From the IMG/VR virus record IMGVR_UViG_3300021170_000201, positions 1 through 24,265 of that record: 24,265 nt of DNA; one strand, written 5' to 3'. The position numbers and the translations under genes are program-made. The notes under the pieces are model-generated. The model was not told where the DNA came from. It worked only from the letters and a program-made list of their open reading frames with translations, and did no database searches. The stretch is from a virus. Each line of letters begins with the position of its first letter. The stretch's first letter is position 1. Shown in pieces: positions 999 through 22,611 of this stretch.

Positions 999-1054
999 TT
1001 TGGAACACCATTCGCAATGCGGCTAGCAGTTCCGTTTCTAGTTTCGTCACGAGG

Positions 1055-1621
1055 TCACGCGATCAGGTCACTAGGGCAGGGCAGGAGATTAGCTGCGTAA
1101 CTCCAGTCACCCTTGACCGCACGGCGCAACATTCGGTAGGCCGTCTCGCCTGGGAATGGATAGACCTTGCTTACGTGCTTTCTGAGGTAATCCGCGCGTT
1201 CGGACTCACTGTAGCAGTTCTCCCAGGTCTGTCGGCAGTCCTCAACTTCGTATTCGCTCCACAGGTCCTCATCGATCACGGGATAGTCCGCCAGTTTGCC
1301 TATGATCTTGTCCGCCAATTCGAGCGCGGCCACGTTCGATTCATGGATAGCGATCCATTCGACCCATCCGCATGCCCAATGGGACTCACGAACTACCGTT
1401 AGTCCAGTTCCTTCGATCATGGAATCGTCGTATCGATTGGACGGGACCATGACTTCTACTTCGGGCAGTCGCTTGAGTGCCTTGAGCATGGCCGCAAAGT
1501 TAGCGCGTTCGAGTGCGTCAGAGTCGCGCGACTGGCCTACACCGGAGCTATACCAGTTCTCCCAGGTCGCGCCCATGTAGTGCTGTGGGCGAGTCCATTT
1601 GCTGATGTTTTCGTATGCCAT
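1055..1621 (-). CDS. Hypothetical phage protein, 188 aa
   Basis: Not recognised. An acidic, aromatic-rich soluble protein (many Trp and Tyr, e.g. YMGATWENWYSSG near the N-terminus and HWACGWVEWIAIH near residue 80), with no signal peptide or membrane segment. The start ATG at 1621 is supported by GAGAGG about 6 nt upstream on the minus strand. It is the third-last visible gene of the leftward operon, 52 nt after the end of the 1674-2033 gene and followed by the HNH gene. Position and size suggest an early accessory protein, for instance host takeover or anti-defence, but nothing in the sequence shows this. Confidence 0.75.
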   Translation of the reverse strand: MAYENISKWTRPQHYMGATWENWYSSGVGQSRDSDALERANFAAMLKALKRLPEVEVMVPSNRYDDSMIEGTGLTVVRESHWACGWVEWIAIHESNVAALELADKIIGKLADYPVIDEDLWSEYEVEDCRQTWENCYSESERADYLRKHVSKVYPFPGETAYRMLRRAVKGDWSYAANLLPCPSDLIA

Positions 1622-1673
1622 TTTGTCCTCTCTATGGTTCGTTCGGTTGTTCGGATGGGAGCTAGGACGCGCC

Positions 1674-2033
1674 CTAGCCCATTTGCTCTAATGCTAGTTC
1701 AGCCTTGACCACGCGTTCATACTCGGAGTAGCCAAAGCATCCCCTGAGCGACTGTACAACGTGGTCTAGTTCGTCGCGCATGACTACGTACCAAGCCTTA
1801 CCTCTCCATTCGTCTTGATACTCCTGGGATTCATCGTCCATGAACGATTCGTCAGCGTCGTAATCCGGGCAGGTCTCGAATGTGTAGCCGTTCTCGACAG
1901 CCCAGGTTTCAGCCTTAGCTAATGCGCGCGCGGATCGTTCGTGGCCTTGCTCTTGTGTTTCGCCTTGAGCCACGCCATAACCCGCGTGCTCGTAGAAGAA
2001 TTGCTCTTGTTTTGTCAGTGCTGTGGTTGTCAT
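1674..2033 (-). CDS. Hypothetical acidic phage protein, 119 aa
   Basis: Not recognised. The protein is strongly acidic in its middle (DYDADESFMDDESQEYQDEW, residues about 57-76) with a Gln/Glu-rich N-terminal third and WYVVMRDELDHVV in the C-terminal half. Soluble, no export signal. The ATG at 2033 has AAAGGA upstream at a usable distance. It sits between two other small genes of the leftward operon. The very acidic composition is typical of DNA-mimic and anti-restriction proteins, but also of many ordinary small phage proteins, so this is not a functional call. Confidence 0.75.
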   Translation of the reverse strand: MTTTALTKQEQFFYEHAGYGVAQGETQEQGHERSARALAKAETWAVENGYTFETCPDYDADESFMDDESQEYQDEWRGKAWYVVMRDELDHVVQSLRGCFGYSEYERVVKAELALEQMG

Positions 2034-2071
2034 GGTCTTTTGTCCTTTCGTTCGATGGATTGGTCGGGGAA

Positions 2072-2452
2072 TTAGGCCGTTCGATTCACTGCTGTGAATG
2101 CTGGAGTGACTGAGTTATAGTCCTGCACAATGCGGTCCATGTAGGACTGGAGCGAGGTATCACAGCGTCCCACGCATGAACTTGGCCACTGATTACCGCG
2201 CACAATGTAGTACTCCATTTGATCGTGCGAGATCCAACGCGCACAGAATACCGTTCCATCGTTGGCCACGCGAAATACCATCGGCGCTTGTGCGGCTATG
2301 TATGTGTCCTCTAAGATCGTTTGCGCGCGGAGCTTCGCATCGGTGACTGACTCACCCACGCAAATATCAGTTACGTTATTCAGCGTGGCCTTGACTGGCA
2401 TGTGCTTATCGCGCTTGCCAAACATCGTTTTGTTAGGTTGAGTTTCAATCAT
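2072..2452 (-). CDS. Hypothetical phage protein, 126 aa, first gene of leftward operon
   Basis: Not recognised. A soluble alpha/beta-looking protein without motifs I can assign. The ATG at 2452 lacks a Shine-Dalgarno sequence but has a TATTAG hexamer 9 nt upstream, so the message may be almost leaderless. A second in-frame ATG at 2401 (MPVKATLN) is an alternative start. As the first gene after the control region it should be the most strongly expressed member of the operon, and the 13-bp motif at 2468-2480 sits directly against its -10. Confidence 0.75.
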   Translation of the reverse strand: MIETQPNKTMFGKRDKHMPVKATLNNVTDICVGESVTDAKLRAQTILEDTYIAAQAPMVFRVANDGTVFCARWISHDQMEYYIVRGNQWPSSCVGRCDTSLQSYMDRIVQDYNSVTPAFTAVNRTA

Positions 2453-2461
2453 GGACTAATG

Positions 2462-2488
2462 CTAATACTTCTAGGTGAAGGATGCAAG
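2462..2488 (-). promoter_or_regulatory. Promoter of leftward operon, with embedded operator
   Basis: On the minus strand a TATTAG hexamer (2467-2462) lies 9 nt before the ATG at 2452. A weak -35-like CTTGCA (2488-2483) lies upstream with a short 15-nt spacer. The spacer contains the repeated 13-bp motif CTTCTAGGTGAAG in inverse orientation. A protein bound there would block the promoter. The -10 match is only 4 of 6, so this rests on position and the repeat motif. Confidence 0.4.
2468..2480 (+). promoter_or_regulatory. Repeated 13-bp operator-like motif, copy 1
   Basis: Reads CTTCTAGGTGAAG exactly. The same sequence recurs at 3078-3090 (last base differs), 3212-3224 (first base differs) and, inverted, 22753-22765. 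All copies are outside genes. The ends CTTC/GAAG are complementary, with an asymmetric TAGGT centre. The pattern resembles stoperators of temperate actinophages in being short, asymmetric, intergenic and repeated, but no repressor gene is in the window. Confidence 0.6.
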
Positions 2489-2516
2489 CGAAATCGTACA
2501 TACTCTCAAAAGAATC

Positions 2517-2532
2517 TTCCATGCTGGAATTT
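2517..2532. promoter_or_regulatory. AAATTCCAG/CTGGAATTT palindrome, degenerate copy
   Basis: TTCCA, two bases, then CTGGAATTT. The right half is identical to the perfect palindrome at 3176-3194 and the spacing is the same; the outer left arm is lost. It lies 37 bp from operator-like motif copy 1, between the divergent starts at 2452 and 2674. Confidence 0.5.
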
Positions 2533-2657
2533 TGAGTCCGTACAGCTGGCCTAGCGCCACTGATGGTAGCGGCCCGGAGGGACGATAACATCAGCATATA
2601 CAGGACGTTATACTGATCGACTGATGTATAAATATTCCTTATCCGACCTGCTGATCA

Positions 2658-2663
2658 TATAAT
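2658..2663 (+). promoter_or_regulatory. -10 hexamer TATAAT of the zinc-finger gene
   Basis: A perfect TATAAT lies 10 nt upstream of the ATG at 2674, with no Shine-Dalgarno between them and only a poor -35. The normal start site would leave a leader of about 3 nt. The hexamer overlaps an earlier ATG at 2662, which argues that 2674 is the true start. Confidence 0.5.
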
Positions 2664-2673
2664 GTCTATTGGC

Positions 2674-2862
2674 ATGAAACGCGATTCAGATTGGCTTTGC
2701 CAGTACTGCTCACACTGGAATCGATCGCACAGAGGGACATGCGCGGCCTGCCGGCGCTTGCCTGCGTCCCTTGCTCGCACTACTAGGTTAAGGTTACGTG
2801 AGCTACGCCAGGCGGCCATTGACGATCACGTGCGACGGCGCGCCGGCCTCATTGTCCCATAG
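2674..2862 (+). CDS. Small RanBP2-type zinc-finger protein, 62 aa
   Basis: The N-terminal 26 residues fit the RanBP2 zinc-finger consensus exactly: W7-x-C9-x2-C12-x3-N16-x6-C23-x2-C26. In eukaryotes such fingers bind single-stranded RNA or ubiquitin. The rest is a basic, Arg-rich helix (RLRLRELRQAAIDDHVRRR), suitable for nucleic-acid contact. An ATG 12 nt upstream in frame would add four residues but falls inside the -10 box. It is the only gene in an otherwise regulatory region, transcribed rightward on its own. A nucleic-acid-binding regulator is plausible but unproven; it could also be a generic zinc ribbon. Confidence 0.7.
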   Translation: MKRDSDWLCQYCSHWNRSHRGTCAACRRLPASLARTTRLRLRELRQAAIDDHVRRRAGLIVP

Positions 2863-3077
2863 TCTGATTGTCCCTTTGTTCCTGCTAACAGTGATTAGCA
2901 TGAGTGCCTCGCTAGGCTGATGAGACTGTCGCTTCGCGCCATCTTCATCAGTGCGGCATATCGCTATAACCCTTGATTCTATTGCCCAATATGCCAGCGC
3001 TTCATTGTTCTAGGGGGCCATAGGGGGGTCGTGAGGCGCGCGCCGCATCTGTGCAGTTCTATAAAAAATAAAACGTC

Positions 3078-3109
3078 CTTCTAGGTGAACAGGAGATCGC
3101 TAGGCGAAG
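3078..3109 (+). promoter_or_regulatory. Tandem operator-like motifs (copy 2 plus variant)
   Basis: CTTCTAGGTGAAC at 3078-3090 is followed by CTAGGCGAAG at 3100-3109. The CTAG cores are 19 bp apart, close to two helical turns, so two proteins could sit on the same face. An A/T-rich block lies just upstream at 3061-3074. Confidence 0.5.
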
Positions 3110-3124
3110 CCATATATCGTTGGA

Positions 3125-3139
3125 TCGTGCGAAGCACGA
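3125..3139. other. Short perfect hairpin
   Basis: TCGTGC, loop GAA, GCACGA: a 6-bp GC-containing stem with a tight loop (TTC on the other strand). No T-run follows on either strand, so it is not a standard intrinsic terminator. Confidence 0.45.
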
Positions 3140-3175
3140 GACTATGATGGATGGTCTGAGCCGCTGTGCCGGTCA

Positions 3176-3194
3176 AAATTCCAGCCTGGAATTT
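3176..3194. promoter_or_regulatory. Perfect 19-bp palindrome AAATTCCAGCCTGGAATTT
   Basis: Nine-base arms AAATTCCAG and CTGGAATTT around a single central C. This is the best copy of a palindrome also seen at 2517-2532 and 22610-22628. It lies 4 bp before a TTGACT -35-like element and 17 bp before operator-like motif copy 3, as expected for a dimeric regulator controlling the operon at 3269. Confidence 0.6.
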
Positions 3195-3197
3195 ACC

Positions 3198-3224
3198 TTG
3201 ACTTGGTGGACTTTCTAGGTGAAG
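3198..3224 (+). promoter_or_regulatory. Candidate early promoter with operator-like motif copy 3
   Basis: TTGACT (3198-3203) matches five of six -35 bases. The motif TTTCTAGGTGAAG (3212-3224) lies in the expected spacer region. No good -10 hexamer is visible at 16-18 bp, so the promoter is only a candidate. The leader would include the Shine-Dalgarno sequence used at 3269. Confidence 0.4.
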
Positions 3225-3268
3225 ATAGGTCATACATGCGGGACGTAACGAAAACGAAGGAGGTAAGG

Positions 3269-3424
3269 ATGAGTAAGCGCCTTCCGTGGAATCACCAATC
3301 CCGTTATTGCGTCTACTGTGGCCGCGTTGGGCCGCGCACGTATGTCCTGGGAGGTTGGGCGCACAAGCGCTGCATCCCATCTCGAAAGCTGGAGAAACGG
3401 AAGAAAGCGGAGAAAACCACATGA
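3269..3424 (+). CDS. Small basic zinc-ribbon-like protein, 51 aa
   Basis: Begins MSKRLPWNHQSRYCVYCGRV. A C-x2-C pair near residues 14-17 and a later HKRC motif could bind zinc, and the tail is Lys/Arg-rich (RKLEKRKKAEK). The start is fixed by a strong AAGGAGG ending 5 nt before the ATG at 3269; earlier in-frame ATGs at 3203 and 3236 lack this. It is the first gene of a chain of overlapping small genes (ATGA with the next). Function unknown; nucleic-acid binding is plausible from charge and cysteines. Confidence 0.65.
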   Translation: MSKRLPWNHQSRYCVYCGRVGPRTYVLGGWAHKRCIPSRKLEKRKKAEKTT

Positions 3425-6181: not shown

Positions 6182-6562
6182 CTACGTTACTACTTCCGCG
6201 ACTGGCCGAGCAATCACCTTGATTTCCTCATCTGCGCTCGCCGTCAATTCGTGCCTGCATTCGTGGCCGATCACGATACACCCGAGGCTCGCATCGTGGT
6301 TGATATTGTCGCCGTGAATCAGAAAGCCCGAGCGGCCCAGGGTATCGGTAAACTCCTCGGGCGTGAGCCGGATCGTCAGTGGCCCCTTCTCGGTACTAAC
6401 TTCTCCCAGGACGTACATGCCTACCGGGATCGGACCCACATCGCGCACTTCCTGGAGCAGCGGATTGTCCCGACCATCACCGTGGCCGCTATAGCCTTGT
6501 CCGCACAGCGACCCATCGGGGCGGTAGAGATTGCCGGTGGATTGAACGTAGAGCCAGGGCAT
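6182..6562 (-). CDS. Tlde1/DUF2778-like L,D-transpeptidase-fold enzyme (lysin candidate)
   Basis: The pattern GYSGHG..NP, then GPIPVGMY (43-50), then GRSGFLIHGD (76-85) and ASLGCIVI (91-98) fits the DUF2778/Tlde1 family, a YkuD-related murein L,D-carboxypeptidase/transpeptidase. The likely catalytic residues are H83, S92 and C95. Known relatives are type VI secretion effectors that attack tetrapeptide stems of peptidoglycan. Here it sits in a phage operon with three small membrane proteins and a lipoprotein, so it probably provides the lytic activity. No signal peptide is seen, so it would need a holin. TGATG joins it to the upstream membrane gene. Confidence 0.75.
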   Translation of the reverse strand: MPWLYVQSTGNLYRPDGSLCGQGYSGHGDGRDNPLLQEVRDVGPIPVGMYVLGEVSTEKGPLTIRLTPEEFTDTLGRSGFLIHGDNINHDASLGCIVIGHECRHELTASADEEIKVIARPVAEVVT

Positions 6563-10594: not shown

Positions 10595-11255
<661 letters not shown>

Positions 11256-11259
<4 letters not shown>

Positions 11260-12830
11260 CGTTGTGTTATGTTTCCTATCAGGGAGATTAGCCCGCGAGA
11301 AACGGAACTTGGAAGAAGTCCATAAGATTGTATCTTGCTATCTTGCGTGGATACGTAGATACGTCCATTAGTCACCACAGGCGCAGCAAACTTCGTCATA
11401 TTCCCCAATGCGTCTTGTCCCGATGTGCCGCTATTCCAGTATTCCGCTAGTGTGGTCGGGTTAAGGGCACGCAGTGTCCCTTGTTGAACCGCCGTGTGGC
11501 TTGTGGTCGCCGTCGTCTCGACCCACAATATGCCGTTCGATGCCCCATTGATGCTGCCGAACATTTGGGCGGGTCCGTAGTTTCCGTAGCTATTCGTCTG
11601 CGTGGCAAGCGGTGTGGTTGTGAATGTACTGCCCCCGAATGTGAAGGCATATATTGATCCGGCGCTCGTGGGTAAGTAAAGTACGTTGTTCATGAACGCT
11701 CCACCATAAGAGCCGGTTTCAGAACCGGGAGTACCCATCGCGTTGGTCTTGAAAGTTTGAAGCGAGCAGCCACTTGACCCTTGTAGATGCCCCATGCAGG
11801 TCGTGTCGATAAGGTAGACATTAAAGTCTTTCCCTGCGACAATCGCGAAGTTAGTACTGGGGATCAGCATTGCCCGGTTCGCGGAAACGTCCGCATCGAC
11901 CGAATCAATCGCAGCATTGTTGGATGGCGTGAACCAATCAAGAACGGACAGCGTGGGGGAAAGCTTTACCGTGCTATCGGAGAAATTTGTCACGCCATCG
12001 TAGCCACCATCGTTGCCAGTGGTCACGTAAATATTGCCGCTTCCGTCTACAGCCGGAGCGCCACCCGACATCCAGACACCACCGCCATACCCATTGGGCG
12101 TAGAGCACCAAATTCCAGCTTGCGATAAATCGGACGTGTTGTAGGCAAATACCCATCCATGCCAGGGGCGCGTATCGTTCAGAGCGCCGAAGGCTACATA
12201 AACTTTATTGTTGGCGAGAGCGAGACCGGCCCGCTGAAATTCAAAGCGCGGATAAAATAGGAGATTCGCTCCGCTGGTCGTATCGCCTTGCCCCACGTCT
12301 CCCGTTCCAACGACTTGGCCGGAGATCGTCGCGGTCAGCAGAGTCGATCCGGTGGTGAGATCCAATTGCCGTATTACCCAGTTGGGCGTACTGGTGTCGC
12401 ACACCACGTAGAGCTTGGAGTTGGCGACATCAACGACCGGAGTTGAAAGACAACCGAGCGAACCGTACAACCCACCCTCAGCGACCGGATAACTCGCATA
12501 GGGACTAGCGAAGGCTAAATTGCTCCAGACGGTAGCTCCTGGCCTATTGGCGTCAAAGGCGTAGACACTGTTGTTCATCGTGACTACAATCAGTAAGTCG
12601 TGGACGACGCCAGAAGTCGTGACTGCCGGAACGAACAATGGCTGAGAGAACACATGGCCATCTGTGGCCCAACCTCCGAACAAGCCAAATTTGCCTGTCG
12701 TTACGTTGGTCGGTGTTAGCTGTGTCTCGGTCGAGACAGAATTGTTGCGATTACCGTCAACATTCGACGTAGGGATGCTAGCTGCTTTACTCAGCAGGAC
12801 AAGGCAGAGTACTAAAAACAATCGCTTCAT
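11256..12830 (-). CDS. Exported PQQ-type beta-propeller protein, 524 aa
   Basis: Signal peptide MKRLFLVLCLVLLSKAAS, then repeated beta-propeller blades: GHVFSQPLFVPAV, NNSVYAFDANRPG, NSKLYVVCDTST, NNKVYVAFGAL, GNIYVTTGND, GSIYAFTFGG and NGRIYVSTQDSK. Such blades (xVYAFDAxTG type) occur in PQQ dehydrogenase-like and outer-membrane assembly proteins, usually cellular rather than viral. No quinone or calcium ligands can be identified, so it is more likely a binding protein than an enzyme. It sits one base after the fibre stop, in the same transcription unit as phage genes, suggesting a captured host gene used at the cell surface or on the virion. Confidence 0.8.
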
Positions 12831-15018: not shown

Positions 15019-15039
15019 GAGGGTATGATACTGGATATT
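15019..15039. promoter_or_regulatory. Overlapping divergent -10 elements, leaderless both ways
   Basis: The 7-bp TATGATA (15024-15030) reads as TATGAT rightward and TATCAT leftward. Rightward it is 10 nt from the ATG at 15040; leftward 6 nt from the ATG at 15018. Neither gene has a Shine-Dalgarno sequence. One -10 region therefore probably serves both the late fibre/lysis operon and the packaging operon, so RNA polymerase binding in one direction would exclude the other. Confidence 0.5.
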
Positions 15040-15780
15040 ATGCCCCGGCCCAAGCCCAAACCCTTGATGCTAGAAAAAGGCGGCTCGACGCGCGGCCTTG
15101 TCCCCTCTTCGGCATTCGCCCGATTCGACATCACGTACAACGAGTACTTGGCCACTTTGGACCCGCGCGGCGACACCAAAGATTCTGCCGCGATCCGCCT
15201 CGCCTTGGCCGGGTCGTCCGATATTCGCTTCCGCAATTTCCTCGAAATGGCGTCGAATCCGCAGGTCAAAGGCTGGACCCTGGCCGCGATCGCCAAACAC
15301 TGCGAGATTGGCCTGACCGAATTTCAGGACTGGCGGCAGAAAGCTCAGACGCAACGGATTCTCGCCAAGGCCCAGGAGGGAATGCTCAAGGTCACGGACG
15401 ACTTGGTAGAGAATGCTCTCAATCGCGATGTGACCTGTGATCGCTGCGATGGCTTCGGCTCGGTAGTCTGTGACTCCAAAGCCCCGAAGTCTACCCCCGG
15501 CCTGCGTCGCATTAAGGGCATGAAATCTGCCGACGATACCTGGATGCGCGACTGCCCTACCTGCAAGGGTAAAGGTGTCCTGCGTGCCTCAGGCAGTGAA
15601 CATGCCATCGATAAGCTCATCGATATGACCGGACTGTCGAGCAAGGGCAAAGGCGGCAGCGGCCCATCTGTCACTCTAAATTTCGGTGGCGCGAGCATGG
15701 AATCCGCAGTAGACCGTCTCTCCAAGATCACCTTCGACGTGAACGATCCCATCGACGTAGATCCATCTCCCCAGAACTAG
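15040..15780 (+). CDS. Putative terminase small subunit with CxxCxGxG zinc motif, 246 aa
   Basis: Residues about 79-100 (WTLAAIAKHCEIGLTEFQDW) form a helix-turn-helix of the kind used by small terminases to bind packaging sites. Helices follow, then two zinc knuckles CDRCDGFG (133-140) and CPTCKGKG (172-179), the DnaJ-type CxxCxGxG pair, separated by about 35 residues. The end (NFGGASMESAVDRL) is conserved-looking. Its place upstream of TerL supports a DNA-recognition role. Start 15040 (MPRPKPK) is preferred to ATG 15025, which lies inside the -10. It is separated from TerL by a fibre gene. Confidence 0.65.
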   Translation: MPRPKPKPLMLEKGGSTRGLVPSSAFARFDITYNEYLATLDPRGDTKDSAAIRLALAGSSDIRFRNFLEMASNPQVKGWTLAAIAKHCEIGLTEFQDWRQKAQTQRILAKAQEGMLKVTDDLVENALNRDVTCDRCDGFGSVVCDSKAPKSTPGLRRIKGMKSADDTWMRDCPTCKGKGVLRASGSEHAIDKLIDMTGLSSKGKGGSGPSVTLNFGGASMESAVDRLSKITFDVNDPIDVDPSPQN

Positions 15781-17550: not shown

Positions 17551-17790
17551 ATGCTCCGCGCCCTGCTTGCGATCTTCCGTCCGATGGCGACGATTGCCCG
17601 CGAGCTGACTACTCTCCGCGAACTATATGAGCTTGACCTTGGTTCTCGTCAGCCGCCGCTCTTTCGTGTGACCGAAAAACCAAATAAGCGCGACACGGAA
17701 GTTTCATATTCGGGCGTCGAAGATTTGCGACCCGGCTACAAACGCTGGTTCCAGCCCGAGGACGAGGAAGAGGAAGATGTACAGTCCTGA
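17551..17790 (+). CDS. Small protein upstream of large terminase, 79 aa
   Basis: Not recognised. An amphipathic hydrophobic N-terminal helix (MLRALLAIFRPMATIARELT) leads into a helix, then an acidic tail (PEDEEEEDVQS). It overlaps the TerL ATPase gene by 14 nt, so it is co-translated with the packaging motor and may be an accessory subunit. Starts at ATG 17551 with no ribosome-binding site, consistent with the leaderless pattern. Confidence 0.65.
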   Translation: MLRALLAIFRPMATIARELTTLRELYELDLGSRQPPLFRVTEKPNKRDTEVSYSGVEDLRPGYKRWFQPEDEEEEDVQS

Positions 17791-19024
17791 CATCATCGAC
17801 CGCCGCCTCCATCAGGCCAAGAAACAGGGCGAAGTGTTTCAGCGTCTGCCGCGCGATAAGTCAATCGATATCGCGGCAAAGCTGGAGCGGCTGCGGATCG
17901 GGCGTGATGGCAAACCGCTGCCCGAGGGCCAGCTCAGTCGCCCGCTTAATGCCGCCGAACAAGCGCACATTCATTCGGAGCGGTTGATATCGAAGTGCGA
18001 CTTCGAGTACTGGTTCGTCCGCTATGCCTGTCTGGAGCTTGATCCCGGTGTGTGTGACCGAAGCGGCGTCGGGCCGCCGATCTTGCTTGAGTCGCAGCGC
18101 AGATATATTACGTTGTTTGGCCGCCGAGAAAAGGAGTGCCATGAAGAGCAGAAAAAGTACAAGTTCACCGAGGGTATTCTTGCGTATGTACATAAGTGCA
18201 GGCAGGTCGTTGCGACCGCGACTGTCCGTGGTATCTCGCAGCACCGTCTACTCTTTTGGCCAGGAACCCGTGGCTTTGCTGCGAGCCTTGATGACGAGAG
18301 AAAAGGAGAGCTTTTCAAACGTGACCATCTCATCCTTGACAATCTCCCCTTTTGGCAAAAACCAAGAATCTATCCAGATGTGAAGGATACCGAATTAGGC
18401 TTTGAGCCACCGGTCTCCTCGCGTATCAACTACCAAGCTGAGAATCAGCAGTCTGGTATCGGCGTCGGTACGCAGAATGACGTGTCCCATCTGACTGAGG
18501 TAGCTCTCTGGCAATACCCAGGCCGCATCCGCTACAGCTTCATTCCCTCGCTGCCCAAGGCGATCACGACCTTTCACGTGCAGGAATCGACATCCGATGG
18601 CAAAGGGAACTACTGGCATGAAGTCACTGAGGCCGCACGTCATCGCCGACGAGGATACGAGTCCTGGATCTACGCTTTCATCCCGTACTATACGAACCGA
18701 CTCAAATACCGCTCGAATCCTCCGAATGACTGGACGCCAGCCGAGCACACGTTGCGCCACGCCGAACTGATCGAGCGCACGAGTCCTGAGTTCTTCGATG
18801 GCATGACGATACATCCGTCGAGGGAGCAGCTATTCTGGTGGGAATCCACTCGGGCACAGCATGCACTGAATGGTGAACTCGCGACCTTCTTAACAAATTA
18901 CCCTGCAACTCCAGAGCAGTCGTTCCAGTCGCCATCACAGGGTGCGCTGCCCGTCGAGTTGATCGAGCAGATGGAAATGGAATGCAAAGATCCGGTTCAC
19001 TATGAGGTCGAAGTCGCTGCCTGA
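17777..19024 (+). CDS. terL: Large terminase, ATPase half (split TerL)
   Basis: The packaging-motor ATPase. A Walker A-like motif lies at 140-150 (KCRQVVATATV; usual form K[AS]RQxGxST, so it is divergent). The sequence LLFWPGTRGFAASLDDERK follows. Walker B-like DVSHLTEVALW (235-245) has the catalytic Glu at 241, and HVQESTSDG (267-275) is the ATPase coupling motif. The protein ends at residue 415, before any nuclease domain, with a TGA that overlaps the next ATG (TGATG). A normal TerL carries both domains in one chain of about 500-700 residues; here the two are separate. Confidence 0.85.
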   Translation: MYSPDIIDRRLHQAKKQGEVFQRLPRDKSIDIAAKLERLRIGRDGKPLPEGQLSRPLNAAEQAHIHSERLISKCDFEYWFVRYACLELDPGVCDRSGVGPPILLESQRRYITLFGRREKECHEEQKKYKFTEGILAYVHKCRQVVATATVRGISQHRLLFWPGTRGFAASLDDERKGELFKRDHLILDNLPFWQKPRIYPDVKDTELGFEPPVSSRINYQAENQQSGIGVGTQNDVSHLTEVALWQYPGRIRYSFIPSLPKAITTFHVQESTSDGKGNYWHEVTEAARHRRRGYESWIYAFIPYYTNRLKYRSNPPNDWTPAEHTLRHAELIERTSPEFFDGMTIHPSREQLFWWESTRAQHALNGELATFLTNYPATPEQSFQSPSQGALPVELIEQMEMECKDPVHYEVEVAA

Positions 19025-19923
19025 TGCCCCAGCAAGCATTTCACGTCTCCGGCTCTCATCTCGACTTGACGCTCGAATCGGACGAGTCTATTGCTCAAGA
19101 TCCGCGCGGCCTCGTCCATGTGTGGCAGGAACCTGTGCAGCACGCCCGCTATATCATCGGCTGCGATCCAAGTGTCGGTATCACAGGCTGGCGGCGCGAC
19201 CTCGCAACAGATGGCGACCATAAGACTGACAACTCGGCCATCGAAGTGTTCCGCGTTGATGCCATCAAATCTCCCGTTATGAAGGATGGTCAGTCTGAGA
19301 TAGACCCGATCACCAAGGCCCCCAAATTCCTCTATCGCGACCTTCAAGTCGCCGAGTTCTTCGCCCCGGTAGATGCCGTAGAGATCGCCCGTGTGTGCAA
19401 TATCCTCGGCCGTATCTATGCCGGTGATCAGGACGATCAGGCCGAACTCATATACGAAGCCTATCCCGGCCCCGGTGTCTTGACCACTCAAGAACTCATG
19501 CGCCTCGGCTACACCAATTTGTGGTACTGGGAAACCATCGCGGATTCAGTCGCCGAGCAGACTTCGAGTGTGGGTTGGCACTCGAACATGAATACGCAGA
19601 AGATCCTGTGGTACAGGTCCCGGCGTCATCTATTGGAGCGTAAGGCCAAGATTCAGTCCCAGTGGCTACTCGCCGAATATGCCAATGCTGTCATCGACAT
19701 CGAAAAGATGCGCGCTCGCGCCGCTTACGGTTTCCACGACGATCTGATCCAGGCGGCAAATATGTGCTTTTGGGCTGGGCATAAGTGGACCTATGATCCC
19801 GAGCGCACCTGGGAACCCGTGACCGAAACTGCTATCGTCGAGCCTCAGCGCTCCGCTCCCGTACTCGGCGAATACCGCTCCTACAAAGAAGTCTGGGCCA
19901 ATGCTCTCGACGGCTGGGATTGA
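19024..19923 (+). CDS. terL: Large terminase, RNase H-like nuclease half (split TerL)
   Basis: The headful or site-cutting nuclease. Acidic residues fit an RNase H fold: D48 in YIIGCDPSVG, E145 in ELIYEAYPGP, and D239/D240 in GFHDDLIQAANM. The protein ends DGWD at residue 299. It starts at ATG 19024, sharing one base with the ATPase stop, so translation probably re-initiates there. About 20 N-terminal residues precede the first nuclease strand, suggesting a genuine start rather than a broken gene. Whether the two halves assemble in one complex must be tested. Confidence 0.85.
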   Translation: MPQQAFHVSGSHLDLTLESDESIAQDPRGLVHVWQEPVQHARYIIGCDPSVGITGWRRDLATDGDHKTDNSAIEVFRVDAIKSPVMKDGQSEIDPITKAPKFLYRDLQVAEFFAPVDAVEIARVCNILGRIYAGDQDDQAELIYEAYPGPGVLTTQELMRLGYTNLWYWETIADSVAEQTSSVGWHSNMNTQKILWYRSRRHLLERKAKIQSQWLLAEYANAVIDIEKMRARAAYGFHDDLIQAANMCFWAGHKWTYDPERTWEPVTETAIVEPQRSAPVLGEYRSYKEVWANALDGWD

Positions 19924-20643: not shown

Positions 20644-22611
20644 ATGGCCGACAAATTCTTCGACCTCCCGCCCATTCGTGACGACGCAGCCCAGCCCGGA
20701 ACAGTAGACTACGCTATTTTGCAGTGGTGCGAGGACCGTCTTCAGCGCGGTCAGCAGTTCGTTGAAGCCTCGGTCGGCTATGACAATATCAACCGCGCTC
20801 TAGACGGCGTATTTGCCAACGAAAAAGAAACCGCCGCGTCCTACGTTCCCACGCCCAAACCCTTATCCCGCACCAAGGCCAACCTAGTCGCGAAGACAGC
20901 CGAAGACCTGACCGCCCTCCTGACTGATACGCGCGTCTTTTGGAATTACGCGACACACAATCCCAAGTACGAAGAACAGGCCCGCATCTCGAACAAACAG
21001 GCCGAAGACTGGTACACCTCCCGGCTAATCGATCTCCGCATCGCCGACGCGATCCGCTACTATACCGTGGCCGGTTCTGGCTTTGTCCACCTCTACTACT
21101 CGCGCCGGCTGAACGACATGATGGTCGAGGCAGAAGACCCCCGCTCGGTCTTTCCCATCGAGCCTATTTCCTACCACACAGTCCAGGATGCGCTTGGCAT
21201 CATCATCCGTAAGGCCCGCACGCCCAACTGGGTCAAGGCCGAATACGACAAGGATGTGAAGGCCGATATCGGCGACCCTGGTATCTTCGGCTGGTTCACC
21301 CGCGTGATCGGCGGCATGGCGAAGAATAAGCATTCCGGTCCCTTGTCCAAACGAGCAGGCGACGACGATGCCATTCCGGCGACTCCCACTGTGTTTGTCA
21401 ACACGATGTATTTGGATGACAAGCGAGTCAATAAGACCAAAGATCATGTCCTGATGGGCGAGTGGGAAAAGGATGACAAGGGCAAGGACCAGCCTAAGAC
21501 TCAGTGGTCCTACCGCGTGGCCCCTGGTGCGCCGTTATATCCATTCAAACGCTTGATCGTCTGGGGTGGCGGCGCTCTGCTTTATGATGGCCCCTCGCCC
21601 TACTGGCACGGCAAGTATCCCATCATCAAACTGACCTTGAATCCTTGGCCCAAATCCTGGCTTGGGAAGGGGCCGCTGTGGGACGTGCTCCCGCTCAATA
21701 CATCGCTCAACTCTCTGCTTCGCGTAGTGGACGATCATGCCGCGATGGTCGCCCAACCCGGTGTAGTCGCCGACCGCAATGTGTCCAAGTCCGAGATGGA
21801 CAAGTTCAACTCGCGGGCACCCGGCTACAAGATCCGCACCAACTTGGCTTCGGGCAAGGGTATCCAGGTCGTCATCCCGCCGCCGCTCGATCAGTCTCTC
21901 TGGCAGCACATCTCCTGGATACAGGACATGATCAAGCAACTGTCGGGCACTGCCGATGTGTCCCAGATGGCGCAGCTCGCCCAGATCCCCTCCGACGATA
22001 CGATCGACACGATCATGAAAGCCATGACCCCTGGTGTGCGCCTCCGCTCGCGCATCCTCGAAGGCTTCATGAAAGAGTTCGCCGAGATGTATCTCTATTG
22101 CATCGCCGAGTTTGACACCCTGCCCAAGCGTGTAGCCAAGTTCGGCCCTGACGGTGTGACTGCCGAGGACTATGACTACGACCCCGGCACATTCATCCCG
22201 GACGATGTACCGGACGGATCTCCTGGCGATATCGCCTCGACCGAAGACGCACTCGGGCTGGATAATCCGCGCCCAAGATACGAGCGGGCCAAGGCCATGC
22301 TCACTGCATTCACGTTCAACTTCAAGCCGGGTTCACTGCTCAATAGCGCCGCGACACAGGACCGGCTCGAAGACCTGCTCCTGTCCAAGATGGGGTATCT
22401 CGACGCCTTCACTCTCATGGAAAATCTCGGCAAGATGAACTTCGCGCCGCCGAGCATCAAGGTGCCCAACTCGATCTTGGAGCGCTTGCAGCTTCAGCAG
22501 GCTTTAGGTATCGGCATGATCGCCAATGCTCAGGGCAGAAAAGCGACCGATCAGGCACCGCCTAGTTTGCAGTCTCAACCAGGCGGCGACGCGACCTTGG
22601 CTACGAGCTAA
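20644..22611 (+). CDS. Portal protein, 655 aa
   Basis: The dodecameric ring through which DNA enters the head. Evidence is the length, its position two small genes after TerL and upstream of a scaffold-like gene, and internal features: SRTKANLVAKTAEDLTALLT, the helix RYYTVAGSGFVHLYYSRR near 138-155, a central clip/crown-type region and a long helical stem region (TADVSQMAQLAQIPSDDTID) near 435-460, with an Asp-rich C-terminal section. No transit signal. The start at 20644 is set by the leaderless promoter. Portal type (podo-, sipho- or myovirus) cannot be told from the sequence alone. Confidence 0.8.
   Translation: MADKFFDLPPIRDDAAQPGTVDYAILQWCEDRLQRGQQFVEASVGYDNINRALDGVFANEKETAASYVPTPKPLSRTKANLVAKTAEDLTALLTDTRVFWNYATHNPKYEEQARISNKQAEDWYTSRLIDLRIADAIRYYTVAGSGFVHLYYSRRLNDMMVEAEDPRSVFPIEPISYHTVQDALGIIIRKARTPNWVKAEYDKDVKADIGDPGIFGWFTRVIGGMAKNKHSGPLSKRAGDDDAIPATPTVFVNTMYLDDKRVNKTKDHVLMGEWEKDDKGKDQPKTQWSYRVAPGAPLYPFKRLIVWGGGALLYDGPSPYWHGKYPIIKLTLNPWPKSWLGKGPLWDVLPLNTSLNSLLRVVDDHAAMVAQPGVVADRNVSKSEMDKFNSRAPGYKIRTNLASGKGIQVVIPPPLDQSLWQHISWIQDMIKQLSGTADVSQMAQLAQIPSDDTIDTIMKAMTPGVRLRSRILEGFMKEFAEMYLYCIAEFDTLPKRVAKFGPDGVTAEDYDYDPGTFIPDDVPDGSPGDIASTEDALGLDNPRPRYERAKAMLTAFTFNFKPGSLLNSAATQDRLEDLLLSKMGYLDAFTLMENLGKMNFAPPSIKVPNSILERLQLQQALGIGMIANAQGRKATDQAPPSLQSQPGGDATLATS

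Follow-up and report, generated by a model that had tools for sequence, protein, structure and literature searches.

The large terminase (TerL) of the phage lineage described here is very probably encoded by two genes, whose separate polypeptides would form the motor and the cutter of DNA packaging. TerL is almost always one protein and is used as a universal single-chain marker of tailed phages. The lineage is represented by the window, a 24,265-base IMG/VR virus record analysed at its full length, and by 78 IMG/VR contigs. These relatives were gathered by IMG/VR scans with single proteins and then with alignments, and their open reading frames (ORFs) were profile-searched. Across the 79 records, the two halves are split in 67 and fused in seven, while five hold one half only. 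The two-ORF layout of the window recurs in 66 other contigs and is therefore not a product of chance. The earlier note on this DNA had proposed comparing relatives for the same split; with 67 of the 74 records having both halves found to be split, a fused TerL in all relatives is not what was seen.

The split locus of the window

The two TerL halves were located by ORF calling at 17777-19024 (ATPase) and 19024-19923 (nuclease). They belong to a packaging operon with the portal gene close by, a neighbourhood also present in the contigs L001 and L004. The features of the locus are as follows.

15025..15780 (+): candidate small terminase, 251 aa, with CxxC motifs; by position only
17551..17790 (+): small gene, 79 aa; 14-nt overlap with the ATPase start; similar ORF in L001 and L004
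17777..19024 (+): predicted TerL ATPase subunit gene, 415 aa; from the ORF, an AlphaFold model and structural alignment
19004..19008 (+): GAGGT, possible Shine-Dalgarno-like element inside the 3′ end of the ATPase gene; from the sequence
19022..19026 (+): TGATG junction, 1-base overlap of the TGA stop and the ATG start; from the sequence
19024..19923 (+): predicted TerL nuclease subunit gene, 299 aa, RNase H/RuvC-like; from the ORF, AlphaFold, Foldseek and VIA-align
20644..22611 (+): portal protein; PHROG 156 portal (E 2e-15) and tblastn to the Tunturi_1 portal (E 6e-26)

The TGA stop of the ATPase ORF occupies 19022-19024, and its A doubles as the first base of the nuclease ATG. The nuclease frame is open from 19006 only, which leaves 16 nt common to both open frames before the first stop. 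The earlier note had read from the letters this pair of ORFs, the TGATG junction with one common base, the ATPase motifs KCRQVVATATV, HLTEVALW and QESTSDG, and the nuclease residues D48, E145 and D239-D240; all were found in place.

In L001 and L004 the ATPase is immediately preceded by similar ORFs of 96-98 aa, counterparts of the 79-aa gene, which probably belongs to the same operon as the ATPase. A similar upstream ORF in the same two contigs corresponds to the candidate small terminase, for which no convincing family match was found in Pfam or PHROGs. Elsewhere in the window, on the minus strand, there are an HNH endonuclease gene (546-998; Pfam HNH, E 6e-5), a Tlde1-domain protein that is possibly a cell-wall-acting enzyme (6182-6562; Pfam, E 4e-12), a protein with collagen-like GPP repeats (10595-11044) and a 524-aa protein with a weak match to a PQQ-like beta-propeller (11256-12830).

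Predicted domains and active sites

Neither TerL half has a significant terminase match in Pfam or PHROGs, so the domains were identified from predicted structures and from tblastn matches to annotated TerLs. In a set of 24 related contigs (23 of 60-68 kb), each with one ATPase-profile gene (read in two frames in G023), the Pfam family Terminase_6N had zero matches, and no terminase other than that ATPase was detected. These phages can therefore seem to lack a terminase.

Both halves were modelled with AlphaFold from alignments of their own relatives. The ATPase model is confident (pLDDT 83, pTM 0.82), with a Foldseek match at E 2.5e-9. Structural alignment with VIA-align gave Z 21.9 to the T4 gp17 ATPase 2o0j (rmsd 3.3 over 276 residues) and Z 21.1 to residues 73-360 of gp17 chain 3cpe. 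As modelled, the window ATPase ORF has a P-loop ATPase domain of the TerL fold. The nuclease model is of moderate confidence (pLDDT 68, pTM 0.71). It matches 3cpe in Foldseek at E 3e-7, and VIA-align gave Z 18.7 to residues 375-562 of 3cpe (rmsd 2.7 over 182 residues) and Z 18.4 to the G20c nuclease 5m1f. The second ORF is thereby predicted to encode a nuclease domain of the RNase H/RuvC-like type, whose catalytic residues are acidic. The pair tiles the single gp17 chain, the ATPase covering 73-360 and the nuclease 375-562, so the break falls in the inter-domain linker. The window halves would hydrolyse ATP for packaging and cleave DNA. An alignment that combined fused with half sequences placed nuclease rows on ATPase columns; it was left out of the folding and the halves were modelled separately.

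The putative active-site features, located by conservation, are listed below.

18191..18226 (+): variant Walker A, HKCRQVVATATV, ATPase residues 139-150; conservation in 70 sequences
18479..18511 (+): Walker B region, DVSHLTEVALW, ATPase residues 235-245
18581..18601 (+): coupling-motif-like QESTSDG, ATPase residues 269-275
19165..19167 (+): predicted catalytic D48 of the nuclease, invariant in 77/77
19456..19458 (+): predicted catalytic E145 of the nuclease, invariant in 77/77
19738..19743 (+): predicted catalytic D239-D240 of the nuclease; D240 in 77/77, D239 in 73/77

Within the Walker A variant, the motif KCRQVVATATV spans ATPase residues 140-150, and K140, R142, Q143 and T147 are invariant in all 70 ATPases. 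The position of the canonical P-loop lysine (A146) is held by A, F, Y, M, H or V in the 68 of the 70 sequences that were listed. T4 gp17 has the canonical P-loop lysine, which is missing at the matching position in the window clade. By analogy with K76 of lambda gpA, the invariant upstream K140 may take its place; a search of the open-access literature for K76 found nothing. The canonical Walker A lysine varies among TerLs, and its absence alone does not exclude membership. In the Walker B segment HLTEVALW (residues 238-245), E241 is invariant (70/70) and T240 is present in 69 of 70; in the coupling-motif-like segment the same holds for E270 (70/70), with T272 in 65 of 70. The nucleases share a further invariant residue, E111, in 77/77.

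A few members depart from this pattern. D239 is replaced by Gly in the nucleases of L074, L127, L128 and L130, three of which are fused. The nuclease of L055 (5256-6163) lies in two overlapping frames, probably through sequencing error. The ATPase of L086 (4001-5223) is in two frames that meet at about residue 278, which represents either sequencing error or a second break.

The window pair is a two-gene homologue of TerL rather than an ordinary TerL, in which both domains are found in one chain. It resembles T4 gp17 in having both domain folds, as predicted for the window, but gp17 is one polypeptide and the window encodes two.

Junctions, inserted genes and history of the split

Split members reach down to approximately 33% ATPase identity. 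The junctions take various forms (ATGA, TGATG, TAATG, TAA directly followed by ATG, and TAG with GTG) and use all of the stops TAA, TAG and TGA. Thirty of the non-redundant junctions measure less than 100 nt; the longer ones number 23, and 0.1-1.9 kb separates the halves in 23 non-redundant lineages. The intervening sequence encodes HNH_3 endonucleases in L001 and L066, a C5-cytosine methyltransferase in L074, an N6/N4 DNA methyltransferase in L120 and a Methyltransf_24 protein in the L143/L080 group; other members with inserts contain small unknown ORFs. The inserted genes carry their own stops, so no fused product is possible in those lineages. The boundary between ATPase and nuclease behaves like an ordinary intergenic site.

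The window itself is a single contig in which one indel within the 16-nt frame overlap would join the frames, as expected if a sequencing or assembly error had broken a normally fused TerL. Against such an error stand the 67 split records with their many junction types in all three frames, the inserts in 23 lineages, and the near relatives L015 and L002, which are split as well at junctions unlike that of the window. This explanation is considered extremely improbable. The earlier note had favoured a genuine split over a sequencing error, and base-calling error is now excluded as a general cause, since junction types differ and whole genes intervene.

Programmed frameshifting or stop readthrough could also yield a fused TerL from two ORFs, and -1 is the commonest relative frame of the halves (32 of 55 non-redundant records, with 0 in 10 and +1 in 13). 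However, no slippery heptamer was found within the 16-nt frame overlap of the window, and recoding is poorly compatible with the use of three frames and three stop codons or with the inserts in 23 lineages. The nuclease moreover has its own start, usually overlapping the ATPase stop by 1 or 4 nt. Recoding is thus regarded as very unlikely.

Splicing, either of an intron or through a split intein, could join the halves too, since TerL genes are known targets of both. In the Jug huge phages, terL is found in 2-3 ORFs split by spliced group I introns (PMC12363816), and the TerL of Mic1 contains two inteins (PMC7156551). One split member of the clade, L155, has an intein inside its ATPase gene (1030-3333; Intein_splicing E 1e-14, LAGLIDADG_3 E 3e-16); it interrupts an NY/CATPEESF motif, and its last residues, before C, are HN. 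Against splicing of the two halves, there was no Rfam match at gathering score to an intron in the window, L001, L021 or L030, the window junction has no intervening sequence and is too tight to accommodate an intron or intein, and in L001 the end of the HNH gene overlaps the proper nuclease start by 4 nt. Splicing of the halves has a next to negligible probability. The Jug phages, with several terL ORFs in endonuclease-rich genomes, have in common with the window clade a TerL spread over separate ORFs; their introns are spliced out and the frame restored, whereas no intron was found in the window clade, whose nuclease has a start codon of its own.

Homing endonucleases make genes in pieces, as in T4-like nrdA. 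The HNH genes between the halves of L001 and L066 resemble this arrangement, but most clade members have no endonuclease at the junction.

Two separate gene products remain the preferred reading, and the second appears to be translated in step with the first. Coupled translation is likely because 25 of the 29 close junctions have a stop/start overlap, of 4 nt in 19 and of 1 nt in six, and in 20 of the 29 the 20 nt before the nuclease start include a Shine-Dalgarno-like match of 4 nt or more. The mean match is 3.4 nt compared with 1.6 nt when shuffled, and none of 2000 shuffles reached 3.4, although the shuffles were mononucleotide and did not keep the relatedness of these related sequences. 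The GAGGT of the window lies 15 nt ahead of the nuclease ATG, a spacing longer than ideal, so coupling there may depend more on the stop/start overlap.

The history of the split was examined on a concatenated IQ-TREE tree of 57 rows. The split or fused state changes five times on this tree, with the same number across bootstrap trees and on separate quick trees of the ATPase and of the nuclease. A single clade of all split rows was rejected (AU p ~3e-37). With fused outgroups, the cheapest history places a single fission after the L087 branch, followed by four re-fusions (L032, the L128 group, L140 and L159); if re-fusion is forbidden, 21 separate fissions are needed. The linker of L032 exceeds the split pieces in length and lacks a Met where the old start lay, as is expected of a re-fusion. 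One ancient fission followed by four re-fusions would thus be the simplest history. The root and the direction of change are the weakest step, the outgroup and L087 branches being long. The distant contigs L037-L045 have both domains, when both are seen, in one ORF and are possible closer fused outgroups for rooting.

In close pairs, dN/dS is approximately 0.02-0.11 for both halves; the comparison of the window with L015 was left out owing to saturated synonymous sites. Both halves are under purifying selection. With the intact catalytic residues, this supports the earlier suggestion of a functional rather than recently broken split. It also bears on whether one half is decaying or employed otherwise, for example the nuclease as a free enzyme outside packaging. 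An unlinked nuclease would be usable elsewhere, and the genes lie up to 1.9 kb apart. However, low dN/dS in both halves, the retention of active sites, the constant gene order, the five-change pattern in the separate trees and the repeated fusion to the ATPase all argue against such a role, which is judged very improbable.

The proposed motor and known systems

We infer coupled translation, complex formation and a division of labour, all three, with the two proteins reassembling into one packaging motor. In this scheme the ATPase protein would act as the translocating ring at the portal. Ribosomes re-initiating at the overlapping TGATG would make the nuclease from the same mRNA, and the nuclease would dock on the ATPase via contacts that are intramolecular in T4 gp17. 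It would cut the concatemer when packaging begins and again when it ends.

In the translocation model of T4 gp17, the nuclease and ATPase domains belong to a single chain and the former moves against the latter. It is quite possible, though short of probable, that the nuclease of the window clade is instead an independent subunit acting in trans, with its own stoichiometry and timing and not as five tethered copies; on this reading the boundary has served as a true intergenic site long enough to gather unrelated genes, and fission and re-fusion have both been tolerated. If this is true, DNA translocation needs no covalent link between ATPase and nuclease. A clade with separate, gene-interrupted or re-fused halves is a natural test of the need for that link, and separate genes let the nuclease be removed or titrated with the motor untouched.

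A two-gene TerL is a kind already known. In most Arthrobacter cluster AY phages, including BillyTP (PP978841) and RadFad, the TerL domains are encoded by two separate, consecutive genes (PMC11920828). Those of BillyTP lie at 600-1679 and 1663-2259, with a 17-nt overlap. As in the window, the ATPase gene is directly followed by the nuclease gene. The AY split is seen in a narrow actinophage cluster, whereas that of the window clade extends to approximately 33% identity, with inserted genes and re-fusions. No AY phage was among the tblastn matches of either window half at E 0.01. Beyond the AY case, a search of the open-access literature for split terminases brought up examples due to introns or inteins; a paper on OM43 phage concerns DNA polymerase rather than terminase. 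Judged by that literature, the novelty here lies in how deep the clade is, in the genes inserted between the halves and in the re-fusions.

All split relatives found are metagenomic contigs, and tblastn found no cultured phage of the split clade. Two contig scans of GTDB species genomes found no relatives and hence no prophage or host link. The closest cultured relatives of the window are Tunturi_1 and Tunturi_2, with 26% identity over 83% for the TerL ATPase and 24% over 75% for the portal. Their genome size and TerL-portal neighbourhood are similar to those of the window clade. Both infect Tunturiibacter (Acidobacteriota) and have podovirus particles and 63 kb genomes (PMC11924767). The TerL and portal similarity offers an Acidobacteriota host for the window phage as a lead only. 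The Tunturi TerL is one gene of 723 aa, in contrast to the two genes of the window clade. Inspection of ATPase tblastn matches found a single TerL gene in each of the isolated phages Tunturi_1, Pseudoalteromonas H6/1, Vibrio 1.182, Roseobacter CRP-7, ctHz2215, Klebsiella SopranoGao and Erwinia PEp14.
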